From positions 1 through 38,446 of the forward strand of contig JAAVCU010000003.1 in the NCBI GenBank assembly GCA_014802175.1: a stretch of 38,446 bases of DNA. Reading direction: 5' to 3'. Numbering within the stretch: the stretch's first letter is position 1; each line of letters starts with the position of its first letter. The notes beneath the pieces were generated by a model. The model ran no database searches. It saw only the letters and a list, made by a program, of their open reading frames with translations, and was not told the DNA's origin. Made by a program: the position numbers and the translations under genes. The DNA comes from Bacteroides sp. (GTDB lineage Bacteria; Bacteroidota; Bacteroidia; Bacteroidales; Muribaculaceae). Below are positions 1-4,781 of the stretch, piece by piece.

Positions 1-350
1 AGTTCAACCATCGTCTTGATATAGACGTAAGTCTTACCTGTACCGGTCTCCATCTCAACATCAAGGTTGACAGCACCTAAACCGTCAATCTTGCTCAAGG
101 ATTGGGAAAGCGGCACACCGGCGGCAGTCTGAACGGAGTGCAAATTATCGAGGAGCTGTTTCGATGAAAGCTCAACATCCGCATTACGGTAGCCGTCATC
201 GTCTCCATCAAAGCGGATTAAGTCAGAGTTTCGCGTCCCGAGATCTCGACGATACTTCGAGGGGTCACGGTTGGGCTGACCTATGAATATGGCGGTTGTG
301 TTATCTACCGCCTCCGTCTGATAGCCCTGTATCTTAAACTTAAATTTCAT
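1..350 (-). CDS. Type III restriction enzyme, Res subunit (N-terminal part, gene runs off the window)
   Basis: Reverse-strand translation from ATG at 350: [17 protein letters not shown]...[29 protein letters not shown] is the Walker A-like helicase motif of type III Res subunits; mod lies in the same operon. Confidence 0.85.
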   Translation of the reverse strand, partial: [116 protein letters not shown]

Positions 351-362
351 CACTTAGAATGT

Positions 363-1430
363 TTAAATTGACGATGAAGCAAAAATTCTCCAACTGCCGT
401 CAGATTCACTTCGTTGAATATATCCTTTATTCAAAAGTTGACGCAATTGCTTATTTACCGCTGCTACTGAAATATCGGCAGCTGCTGCAAGCCCTTCAAT
501 TGTAATATCCGGGTTATATTGCATTGATTTCAATAACTTTGGAGTAGACGAACTTCTAAATACAATCTTTTGTCCGTCATACCACCATACGTTAGGTGAA
601 GTTTCTGCGATGAAATCAATATTATATTTCAATTCTTCTGTCACAAGGCTTTTGAAATATCTTAGAAAATGTCTGATTTGTTTTATATCAGCATTAGCAC
701 CGACTGATGGTAACAGACCAGTCTCAACGTCACTTTGATGTAAAGCTTCAATATATTTATGCTTATTCCGACTACGTACAACTATCATTGGCCAGTTATG
801 ACGAGCCAGAATATAGTTAACCATTAGTCGAGCAATTCTGCCGTTACCATCTTCAAACGGATGAATTCTGATATACCGGTAGTGAAACAATGCCGCTAAT
901 TCTATTGGAGTATATTTACCAGATTTTTCCGCATCATTGTACCAGTCAACCAATAATGTCATTAACGCCGGGGTCTCTTCCGGCGAAGCGTATTCAAAGC
1001 GATCTCCATATCGGGTGATTACACTATTGGGTCGATTCTTGTATTGACCTGCATGAACGGTGTAGCTCGTTGTAATACCTCCAGGTAATTGACGATAAAC
1101 TGTATAATCCTCTCGAAGTATAGTTTTATGAAGTTGTCTGATAAAATTTTGAGTTAGTGGCTGTTCTTTAAGATGCGCTTCTTCAGACATCATCTTTACT
1201 CCCACTTGGCTGGCCTTCATATCAACAAAATCCTTCAAATCACCTTCTCCCACAACTTTACCAAAAAGAAGCAATAATTCTGTCTGACCGTAAGTCAGAG
1301 TATTACCTTCAATATGATTGCTGTTGTAGTTATAGTCAACTGAAAAGCGCTGACTCAATAAATATTGCTTCCTTTCACTCAAAGGTTGCAACGATTGCCA
1401 TGTAGTATATAGATTCTGAAGTTTATCCAT
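363..1430 (-). CDS. Fic family protein with C-terminal winged-helix-like region
   Basis: HPFEDGNGRIAR matches the Fic motif HxFx(D/E)GNGRxxR; N-terminal SNHIEGN fits the (S/T)xxxE(G/N) inhibitory helix motif; C-terminus (ITIEGLAAAADISVAAVNKQLRQLLNKGYIQR) looks like wHTH. Confidence 0.93.
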   Translation of the reverse strand: MDKLQNLYTTWQSLQPLSERKQYLLSQRFSVDYNYNSNHIEGNTLTYGQTELLLLFGKVVGEGDLKDFVDMKASQVGVKMMSEEAHLKEQPLTQNFIRQLHKTILREDYTVYRQLPGGITTSYTVHAGQYKNRPNSVITRYGDRFEYASPEETPALMTLLVDWYNDAEKSGKYTPIELAALFHYRYIRIHPFEDGNGRIARLMVNYILARHNWPMIVVRSRNKHKYIEALHQSDVETGLLPSVGANADIKQIRHFLRYFKSLVTEELKYNIDFIAETSPNVWWYDGQKIVFRSSSTPKLLKSMQYNPDITIEGLAAAADISVAAVNKQLRQLLNKGYIQRSESDGSWRIFASSSI

Positions 1431-1570: not shown

Positions 1571-3532
1571 CTACAGTACTTTGTGGATAGTGTCGGGAGA
1601 ATAATGCTTGAAAATCTGCTCGAAGTTATCGAGGACGTTATCGTTAGCGGCAGAAGCATCGCGCATTACGAAGTATTGAGGCTTCATCTTGGCGATTTCG
1701 GTAACGGTGGACTCGTTCACATCGGTGTCGAACGTAGCGACAAGATAAGTGCCGTCAACGAAGAACACCTTTTTGCCATTGACTTCTTTTTCTTCAATCT
1801 TTGCCGAAAGTTCAATACCAAGTTCCGGCATTACTTGGAAAAGTAAATCAAGCGGAGTTCGGTCGGACTTCACATTATCAACCGATTTGAATAGGTCACT
1901 TTCGTTAAAATCTTCGGGAGTGTAGAACACATCCTCCATATTCGACGAGTCAAGTTTGAGCACACGGAAACCGACGTCTGGTAGGGACGCGATTCTTCGC
2001 GTCCGCGCCGAATTATCGGAATCATCAAACAAATCCGACTGGTTGGTATTCTCCTTGTCTTCGCGGACGCGATTAATCGCGTCCCTACAGATCTGCTCCC
2101 CGGCACGGCGGATGCGCTCTTCTCCGATTTGGCAAATGTTCTCATAACCAGCCTTACGCGCTTCGCTCTTCTCATCTGTCACTTCGGGAAGCTGCACCAT
2201 AATGAATTTGCGTTTTCCTCCGTCCTCAGCATTGAGTTTCATGACGGCGTGTGCGGTTGTTGCACTCCCGCTGAAGAAGTCAAGAATCGTAGAAGATTGA
2301 GTGGATGCTATTTCAAGCATTTTAGCAACAAGCTCGTATGGTTTAGGAGTATCAAAAACCTGTATACCATCAAACAATTCCTTTATAACAGAGGCAGCTT
2401 GACGAGTCGTACCATATTTTTGTCCTTCCCAAAGATTTTCCGGAGTGCGTCCTTTTTGATCTGATAAATATATTTTTCTGATTATTCCTGTATTATCCTT
2501 CTTGAATATTATTTCACCAGACGCAATTTTTTCTGATACAGACTCTTCTGACCATCGCCATCCATTTGCAGGAGGAGGAATTATATTTCCATTAGGGGCA
2601 ACTATATTGAAACATAATGTTTTTCGATAATTTGGACTTCGTACATCACCACTTCTCCATAATCCTTTAGGATCGTTATCGGGATTTGAATAGTTAACAT
2701 TGTCCTCTTCGGTTCTTTGAAAATAAAATTCGTGAAGATTATTTTTATATTTCGAGAAGCACAATGTATGATTATATTGACGAGAAAAATGACGCTCGTC
2801 ATTTTTACTCTGCTGTGTATGCTTCCAAATTATATCTGAAATAAAGTTGTTCTCACCGAATATCTCCGAACATATTTTTTTTAAATTTTCGACTTCGTTA
2901 TCATCAATAGAAATGAAGATCACTCCATCATCAGAAAGTAAGTCGCGAGCGACTTTCAGTCGAGGATATATCATGTTGAGCCAGTCGGTATGAAAGCGAC
3001 CATTGCTCTCCGTGTTACGCTGCATGGGGTCAGCGGTAAGGTTACCTTCTTCATCGCGGACGCGATTAATCGCGTCCCTACGCCAGTCTGCATAATCCTG
3101 AGCGAAATCGTCGTTATAGACGAAGTCATTGCCTGTATTATAAGGAGGGTCAATATAGATCATCTTGATTTTACCAAGATAGTTCTCGCGGAGAACCTTA
3201 AGCACATCAAGATTGTCTCCCTCGATATAAAGATTTTCTGTATTCCAAAAATCCTTTGAGGCATCCACGTCAGGACGCAGTGTCATATCCGTAGGAGTAT
3301 TGGCAAGACGCGAAGCGGCACGCTTATCTGGCCACGTGAACTGATAACGCTCTTCAGAAGAATCAATAATTTCATCAGATAACTCTTCCTTAAGTTTATC
3401 AAAGTCGATTTTTAATCGGGGGGGGGTATTATATTTCCCTTTTACTTCAGTAACGCAATAGGGGAACAACGCGGCTATCTTTGCCACGTTTCCATCTACA
3501 GCACTGCGAGATGACATTCTGAGTTTATCCAT
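1571..3532 (-). CDS. mod: Type III restriction-modification system DNA methyltransferase (Mod)
   Basis: IDPPYNTGNDFVYNDDF (motif IV) precedes DFFSGSATTAHAVMKLN (motif I), beta-class order; GRFHTDWLNMIYPRLKVARDLL and GFRVLKLDSSN are typical of type III Mod. Confidence 0.93.
   Translation of the reverse strand: MDKLRMSSRSAVDGNVAKIAALFPYCVTEVKGKYNTPPRLKIDFDKLKEELSDEIIDSSEERYQFTWPDKRAASRLANTPTDMTLRPDVDASKDFWNTENLYIEGDNLDVLKVLRENYLGKIKMIYIDPPYNTGNDFVYNDDFAQDYADWRRDAINRVRDEEGNLTADPMQRNTESNGRFHTDWLNMIYPRLKVARDLLSDDGVIFISIDDNEVENLKKICSEIFGENNFISDIIWKHTQQSKNDERHFSRQYNHTLCFSKYKNNLHEFYFQRTEEDNVNYSNPDNDPKGLWRSGDVRSPNYRKTLCFNIVAPNGNIIPPPANGWRWSEESVSEKIASGEIIFKKDNTGIIRKIYLSDQKGRTPENLWEGQKYGTTRQAASVIKELFDGIQVFDTPKPYELVAKMLEIASTQSSTILDFFSGSATTAHAVMKLNAEDGGKRKFIMVQLPEVTDEKSEARKAGYENICQIGEERIRRAGEQICRDAINRVREDKENTNQSDLFDDSDNSARTRRIASLPDVGFRVLKLDSSNMEDVFYTPEDFNESDLFKSVDNVKSDRTPLDLLFQVMPELGIELSAKIEEKEVNGKKVFFVDGTYLVATFDTDVNESTVTEIAKMKPQYFVMRDASAANDNVLDNFEQIFKHYSPDTIHKVL
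1981..2004. repeat. REP-like palindrome copy 1 (inside mod)
   Basis: gtagggacgcgattcttcgcgtcc; 8-bp stem ggacgcga/tcgcgtcc with loop ttct; encodes TRRIASLP in Mod. Confidence 0.85.
2062..2088. repeat. REP-like palindrome copy 2 (inside mod), inverted relative to copy 1
   Basis: cgcggacgcgattaatcgcgtccctac; 20-nt perfect palindrome at 2065-2084; encodes RDAINRVR in Mod. Confidence 0.85.
3055..3081. repeat. REP-like palindrome copy 3 (inside mod)
   Basis: cgcggacgcgattaatcgcgtccctac; perfect palindrome at 3058-3077; identical to copy 2 over 27 nt; encodes RRDAINRVR in Mod. Confidence 0.85.
3418..3426. repeat. Homopolymer G9 (C9 on the coding strand) in the 5' part of mod
   Basis: aatcgggggggggtatt; coding strand aat acc ccc ccc cga (N T P P R). 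Confidence 0.95.
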
Positions 3533-3660
3533 ATTTAAAATTTAATTTGAAAAACAATCCTTAGTCCAATTTTCAACATTCGTATCAACATAATTCATAA
3601 TGTTGTCGAATGCCATCTGGTTACGAATTATATGTTCGTGATAACGCGATTGCCAGCACG

Positions 3661-3684
3661 GTAGGGACGCGATTCTTCGCGTCC
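3661..3684. repeat. REP-like palindrome copy 4 (inside RAYT)
   Basis: gtagggacgcgattcttcgcgtcc, identical to copy 1; encodes TRRIASLP in RAYT. Confidence 0.85.
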
Positions 3685-3802
3685 ACAGTGTCCTTGTGAC
3701 ACCGGCCTTGAATGATCCAATGATCGTTGCCAACCTGTTGTTGTGATGTTTATCGATGCATTCATCCCCATGTTCCGGCGACTTCAGACATCCGGTATTT
3801 AC

Positions 3803-3844
3803 CGACTGGTCCGTCGCCGCAGAATGCGACTGGTCGGTCGCGGC
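3803..3844. repeat. Short tandem duplication, 24-nt period, inside RAYT
   Basis: cgactggtccgtcgccgc-agaatg-cgactggtcggtcgcggc; two 18-nt units differing at 2 positions; encodes AATDQS-HS-AATDQS in the restored frame. Confidence 0.75.
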
Positions 3845-3867
3845 GGACGCGATAATCGCGTCCCTAC
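3845..3867. repeat. REP-like palindrome copy 5 (inside RAYT, one nt shorter at the centre)
   Basis: ggacgcga-taa-tcgcgtccctac; loop taa where copies 2 and 3 have ttaa. Confidence 0.85.
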
Positions 3868-3979
3868 AGAGATGACCATATGTATATGATTGGGCATCAC
3901 CACATGATTTAATAACTCGACATCCACATAATGTGAGGGAATGCTCTGTATGTTTTCTTCTACAATTTTGCCTGATTCT

Positions 3980-4002
3980 GACGCGATGAATCGCGTCCCA
4001 AC
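3980..4002. repeat. REP-like palindrome copy 6 (inside RAYT)
   Basis: gacgcgatgaatcgcgtcccaac; 8-bp stem gacgcgat/atcgcgtc; encodes VGTRFIAS in RAYT. Confidence 0.8.
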
Positions 4003-4099
4003 GATTCTTCCGAATAAATGTCGCTTCTCATGCGAACATATCGTCACGAAGTAGATACCACCGCTGTAGTCATGCCATTTGGCTCGGAATTGATGTCTG

Positions 4100-4396
4100 T
4101 CAGCCATTCAGTCCTCCTTTCAATCGTTTGAGTTCGATAAATAGTTCTCGCTTGCGGCGTGGCTGTTTGGTAGCGTTCATAAGACGTTTCAATGCAGCAA
4201 TCTGACGTTCAATTTTGGCGCGTTCTTCGTCAACCTTGATTTGTTCAGAAAGAGTTTTGTCCTCTTCGACTGAGAATTGTCCGATTGAGGATACATTGTT
4301 TTCCCAAACAGCATAAAGATTAAGACCTGACAGTCTTAAAGAGCTGCGCCTTTGGCTGCGTTTTTTAACCTCGGTTGATTGTGGCAGTCCTAACAT
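4100..4396 (-). CDS. Shortened DUF4391-like protein of the type III RM operon
   Basis: Starts MLGLPQSTEVKKR and ends with a Lys/Glu-rich coiled tail (KIERQIAALKRLMNATKQPRRKRELFIELKRLKGGL), as I recall for DUF4391 proteins near type III RM genes; only 98 aa. Confidence 0.5.
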   Translation of the reverse strand: MLGLPQSTEVKKRSQRRSSLRLSGLNLYAVWENNVSSIGQFSVEEDKTLSEQIKVDEERAKIERQIAALKRLMNATKQPRRKRELFIELKRLKGGLNG

Positions 4397-4412: not shown

Positions 4413-4781
4413 TCAGTGATTAGATTTCAGTTTATTGCTACTGGTTTTTGCAGTGGCAGTTAGAAGTTTAATCAATTCAGTACAGTCTTGTTCGATAGAA
4501 TCATATTCCGTTTTTGAGAGATAATCGGTTTCACATAGAAGATCTAACCAATATTTTGTCTCAGTACATTCTTTCAATGAAATGTAGATTTTTGAAGTAA
4601 AGTCCTTCATACTTATCCCACAAATAGCCTCAGCAAGATTCGCACCAATGGAAGTGCCACTCCGTAAAAGTTGCTTTGATAGCACAAATTCTCGCTTTTC
4701 TTCACTTAAATATTTGTACAGCCTTACAATCCTAATTGCAAACGCTTTAGCTTTTATGAATGTAATCGAATTCTGTGACAT
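4413..4781 (-). CDS. Four-helix bundle protein (23S rRNA intervening-sequence protein family)
   Basis: KAKAFAIRIVRLYKYLSEEKREFVLSKQLLRSGTSIGANLAEA...KIYISLKECTETKYWLDLL is characteristic of the family. Confidence 0.9.
   Translation of the reverse strand: MSQNSITFIKAKAFAIRIVRLYKYLSEEKREFVLSKQLLRSGTSIGANLAEAICGISMKDFTSKIYISLKECTETKYWLDLLCETDYLSKTEYDSIEQDCTELIKLLTATAKTSSNKLKSNH

Follow-up and report, generated by a model that had tools for sequence, protein, structure and literature searches.

The RAYTs of E. coli and Stenotrophomonas are known to bind hairpins as single strands and to cut next to them. TnpA-REP subclass 2.4, which is RAYT group 4, is common in Bacteroidetes, and its genes carry REP insertions that leave the frame undisrupted and generally lie between HUH and Y (Quentin et al. 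2018; PMC6006769). REPs are also found inside many other genes (PMC3733652). Here we analyze a RAYT gene in a 38,446-nt stretch of DNA from a gut bacterium, referred to as the window, that has lost its reading frame inside one of its own REPs. Judged by motifs, taxon and REP placement, the gene appears to fit subclass 2.4, and we file it as a putative broken member of that RAYT/TnpA-REP group.

The likeness to subclass 2.4 (PMC6006769) extends to NH[IFV]H, WQ and YIxNNP-like motifs, a variable region between HUH and Tyr, in-frame REPs within tnpAREP, and a GT[AG]G tag. Orthologues of the window gene carry GTAG-tagged REPs in frame within tnpAREP, whereas site 2 of the window copy is broken. 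The window RAYT also differs in residing in a type III restriction-modification (R-M) operon and in having a REP (site 1) before the HUH motif, while published insertions generally lie between HUH and Y. REPs within RAYT genes were considered as a novelty in themselves and dropped as already published (PMC6006769); what the window adds is limited to the broken copy, a REP ahead of the HUH motif, and the repeated location in type III R-M operons together with the REPs in mod.

Other described systems are more distant. Intragenic GTAG REPs (PMC3733652) are similarly tagged palindromes and dimers in ORFs of unrelated genes, several of them DNA-handling, but the host gene in the window is a type III mod beside a RAYT. 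E. coli TnpA-REP (4er8), with its REPtron, shares the fold, the HUH and Tyr motifs and a GTAG-tagged hairpin; sequence similarity is nevertheless very weak, the window palindrome is perfect and lacks the E. coli bulge, and the REPs lie inside the gene. Rickettsia palindromic elements (RPE) are likewise translated in frame within proteins, a likeness of arrangement, whereas the window elements go with a RAYT and, at RAYT site 1, substitute residues with little change in length.

The RAYT gene is split at the centre of a palindrome

Translation of the minus strand revealed a RAYT/TnpA-REP gene split into two reading frames, with the following features.

3542 to 4107, minus strand: RAYT/TnpA-REP gene (IS200-like HUH-Y1 family) in two frames, from translation, one-frame orthologues, the match of orthologues to NF047646 below cut-off, and the resemblance of the L036 fold to 4er8
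3799 to 4107, minus strand: N-terminal half ORF of 102 aa with the HUH motif (NHIH), from the ORF list and translation
3542 to 3733, minus strand: C-terminal half with WQ..YHEHIIRN and the catalytic-Tyr region MNYVDTN, the ORF being listed from TTG and aligned via L036 with WQPRFWEHAIRN..YIYINP of 4er8
3978 to 3998, minus strand: REP site 1, in frame (VGTRFIAS), tag GTTG and not GTAG, from palindrome search and orthologue alignment
3845 to 3867, minus strand: REP site 2, GTAG plus GGACGCGA-TTA-TCGCGTCC on the coding strand, 3-nt centre, place of the frame break, from palindrome and frame analysis and genus counts
3661 to 3684, plus strand: REP site 3, oriented oppositely and read as WTRRIASLP in the frame of the C half, from palindrome search and orthologue alignment
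3803 to 3847, minus strand: 24-nt tandem duplication (SAATDQSH/SAATDQSV) in the variable linker beside REP site 2, from repeat search and translation

The N-half ORF runs from 4107 to 3799 and ends ...NHIHMVISVGTRLSRPPRPTSRILRRRTSR*, with its stop codon at 3801-3799. The C-half frame (offset 2), which bears WQSRYHEHIIRN...MNYVDTN, is open on the minus strand from 4030 to a stop at 3544-3542 and contains no further stop or frame break in the C half. NHIH, of the form NH[IFV]H, is present in the N half; WQ and MNYVDTN are encoded in the window DNA but not in the HUH frame, whereas in orthologues all are in one protein. In the ORF list, no interruption is apparent in any other long gene of the window.

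The window contains six copies of the palindrome GGACGCGA-N-TCGCGTCC, one-sided variants included (1985, 2065, 3058, 3665, 3845 and 3979). The centre is 4 nt in five of the six and 3 nt only at 3845, where the plus strand reads GGACGCGA-TAA-TCGCGTCC (3845-3863) followed by CTAC (3864-3867), the GTAG of the coding strand. Translation of the left half of this palindrome falls in the N frame (VGTRL) and that of the right half in the C frame, so that the frame step is localized to the palindrome centre. The original prediction, that the frame is broken at a palindrome centre by one missing base, is thus borne out. It had missed that sites 1 and 3 of the same gene are also in-frame palindromes, a feature of the family.

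Controls with reversed patterns gave no matches in the genome itself and almost none across the genus; thus, the palindromes are not due to chance. Among 111 genomes of the same genus, exact palindromes with a 4-nt centre numbered 245 (the sum of per-search counts) and those with a 3-nt centre two, one being the window copy and the other (G044:C175:5699) lying outside any long ORF. With 3-nt centres at 2 of 247, loss of a centre base is rare rather than an inherent feature of the repeat. If single-base losses fell evenly, the naive chance of one hitting the centre of any of the gene's three palindromes would be about 2% (12 of 566 bases). The proposal that these REPs are mainly intragenic was dropped, as in 20 sampled regions of same-genus genomes most copies lie outside long ORFs, a further difference from the intragenic REPs of PMC3733652. 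One genome of the genus (G059) holds about 99 exact palindrome copies, versus 0-20 in other members, and this copy number looks like a recent expansion.

Intact relatives carry palindromes in frame

Searches with the N half recovered RAYT relatives from Muribaculaceae and other Bacteroidales. All 13 close Bacteroidales relatives with a readable gene have a single open frame of roughly 170-245 codons across the break point (the RAYT of L042 is cut by a contig end). The two halves are therefore not naturally separate genes, and the claim that the HUH and Tyr halves constitute one gene stands; naturally paired genes, the outcome against which orthologues were to be checked, were not seen among the close relatives examined, which are single genes. 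The HUH, WQ and Tyr motifs are all present in the orthologue alignment, and the HUH histidines are invariant in a 44-row alignment. Two orthologues match NCBIfam NF047646 (REP_Tyr_transpos) at 1e-14 to 1e-15, below the curated 80-bit cut-off. The predicted structure of the intact orthologue L036 (pLDDT 85.7) had as its best Foldseek match 4er8, the REP-bound E. coli RAYT (E=7.4e-7), with IS200/IS605 transposases also among the top PDB matches, as expected of a predicted Y1 HUH nuclease fold. Motifs, orthologues and fold together uphold the RAYT identity first assigned to the gene. Two further RAYT copies in the same genus are damaged: that of G037 is decayed, with stops and frame changes, and that of G139 breaks off a little beyond REP site 1.

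REP-coded peptides occur at shared places in most close relatives: VGTRFIAS/VGTRFFAS at about residue 36, VGTRxIAS immediately behind the HUH strand, and RTRRIASLP ahead of WQ. In-frame internal REPs were found in the intact genes of L034, L036, L037, L039, L044 and others, while those of L043, L045 and L047 were without such a palindrome by the pattern used. An internal palindrome is therefore normal for the gene, as already published, and does not in itself constitute the lesion. All copies of sites 1 and 2 that bear a GTAG/CTAC tag are in sense orientation and all tagged copies of site 3 in antisense, and 17 of 20 internal REPs of RAYT genes share a common codon phase. In the L036 model, site 1 encodes a portion of a beta hairpin, site 2 coincides with the beginning of a low-confidence linker that leads from the HUH strand to the next helix, and site 3 lies between a helix and the strand that follows. 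At site 1, the orthologue alignment has the REP swapping residues with little change in length. Codon phase at the site-2 REP differs between the closely related L034 and L035, yet both genes are open throughout, indicating that indels do occur at this site. Tandem duplications are present in the RAYT linkers of L041 (4240-4350) and L043 (2016-2747) as IASTSAQGN repeats and QNIAEMPSHGRA repeats; they look like repeated pieces of REP plus flank.

Cause and age of the break

A recent one-base loss in the site-2 hairpin likely inactivated the RAYT enzyme. An intact RAYT would bind GTAG-tagged hairpins as single strands and cut alongside them, and the protein would tolerate the loop or linker peptides encoded by the REPs in its own gene. 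The site-2 hairpin is predicted to have lost one base from its tip, most likely through a replication slip there. The frame would then shift just after the HUH strand, parting HUH from the catalytic tyrosine, and consequently no active enzyme would be made. The palindrome with its lost base would still be able to fold as a REP; the DNA hairpin energy is -9.9 kcal/mol with a 3-nt and a 4-nt loop alike. The case illustrates how a RAYT bearing its own palindromes in frame can be killed by them, as a hairpin indel shifts the frame between the two catalytic motifs and the DNA hairpin stays foldable despite the frame-killing indel.

The main rival to a recent inactivating indel is an error of assembly or consensus, with the palindrome centre misread or collapsed and the gene intact in the organism. 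The window derives from a 77%-complete draft in 42 contigs, near-identical REPs lie nearby in the same locus, and the C half is otherwise free of lesions, all of which suit such an error. Against it, the other five palindrome copies of the window have normal centres, as do 245 of 247 across the genus; no other long window gene looks frame-broken in the ORF list; and the palindrome centre is not a homopolymer. We consider an error of this kind unlikely, but far from negligible. A programmed or reversible (phase-variable) frameshift at the hairpin, controlling RAYT activity, would accord with a break at the tip of a stable hairpin, with the long open overlap of the two frames, and with the indels evident at site 2 from L034 and L035. 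However, the N-half reading frame contains no X-XXY-YYZ slippery heptamer and the window RAYT gene no homopolymer longer than 5, no close orthologue requires a shift, and 3-nt centres are rare, making such control highly improbable. That the halves are made separately and act together as a split enzyme is scarcely credible: motifs are kept in both halves and a TTG start is available for the C half, but the stretch from the N-half stop to the conserved C region has no other listed start, orthologues are single genes, and the split would be new to the window copy alone.

Of the three causes offered by the original prediction, a recent inactivating mutation thus fits best, assembly error is possible, and a programmed or reversible frameshift is unsupported. 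Also in favour of mutation are a further lesion in the operon, the internally deleted DUF4391 gene, and the damaged RAYT copies of G037 and G139. The observation itself is confirmed and its explanation is ordinary, being a known kind of gene in a broken state or a slip of assembly. If the assembly is right, the window RAYT is probably a freshly dead copy. The dN/dS of the C half against relatives (0.07-0.23) resembles that of intact gene pairs; because saturation at synonymous sites is common and each half is short, this says only that the break is not old, and the suggestion that it is recent draws on few codons. No other copy of the locus was found in viral contigs, plasmids or phages, the genome collections being limited to one genome per species.

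RAYT genes recur beside type III mod

The RAYT sits between DUF4391 and mod in a type III R-M operon whose order in the window is S23 protein, DUF4391, RAYT, mod, Fic and, at the contig edge, the beginning of res.

4413 to 4781, minus strand: S23/23S rRNA-intervening-sequence protein (PF05635)
4100 to 4396, minus strand: DUF4391 gene, internally deleted, 98 aa versus about 200 aa in relatives, with an 8-nt overlap with the RAYT start, from domain search and comparison
1571 to 3532, minus strand: type III R-M methyltransferase (Mod) of 653 aa with three in-frame REPs (N6_N4_Mtase, E=3.7e-36; orthologue alignment)
3058 to 3081, minus strand: REP in mod (RRDAINRVR), adding 2 aa relative to most orthologues and common to G013 and G034, from orthologue alignment
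1981 to 2088, no strand assigned: inverted, REPIN-like pair of in-frame REPs in mod, within a linker that most orthologues have about 30 aa shorter, from orthologue alignment
363 to 1430, minus strand: Fic/DOC family protein with a winged-helix domain, between mod and the res fragment, from domain search
3 to 356, minus strand: type III res gene, of which the contig end leaves only the start, with 80% identity to the G113 res protein

An amino-methyltransferase mod and a res gene identify the operon as type III R-M. A fuller operon is found in G113 (L154), with the order SNF2-type helicase, DUF1016, DUF4391, RAYT, mod, zeta-like kinase and res, the res protein matching NF012027 below its cut-off. 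The window DUF4391 gene constitutes a second lesion in the same operon: its start and end are kept, but relative to G113 and G031 about 100 internal residues are missing. In G031, mod comes straight after DUF4391 with no RAYT (an empty DUF4391-mod junction), and in G013 an S23 gene takes the place of RAYT between the two. In five loci a RAYT sits immediately upstream of mod: the window, L038, L039, L046 and L045, the last being the G113/L154 locus. The tree does not group these mod-adjacent RAYTs as one clade, and a single origin is neither shown nor excluded. Their recurrent placement beside type III mod, together with REPs in mod, offers a modest clue to how such elements and restriction systems come together. 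A long shot is that the site-2 hairpin acts as a mutable switch whose tip loses and regains bases, turning the REP transposase off and on within a population; the RAYT lineage concerned would reside in type III R-M operons and insert REPs in frame into mod.

An 8-nt overlap of the RAYT start with the upstream gene was observed in the window (4100-4107), L034, L035, L038, L040 and L045, with ATGNNTGA or ATGAATAA providing the stop of the upstream gene. That gene differs, being a riboflavin kinase in L034 and a DUF4391-type gene in L045, and recurrence of the overlap despite this suggests translational coupling or a preferred insertion place. The mod of G013 (L146) has other inserted peptides (QNAKCTMHNS and LCIKNCA) at the linker that holds the inverted REP pair in the window, possibly from another palindromic repeat family.
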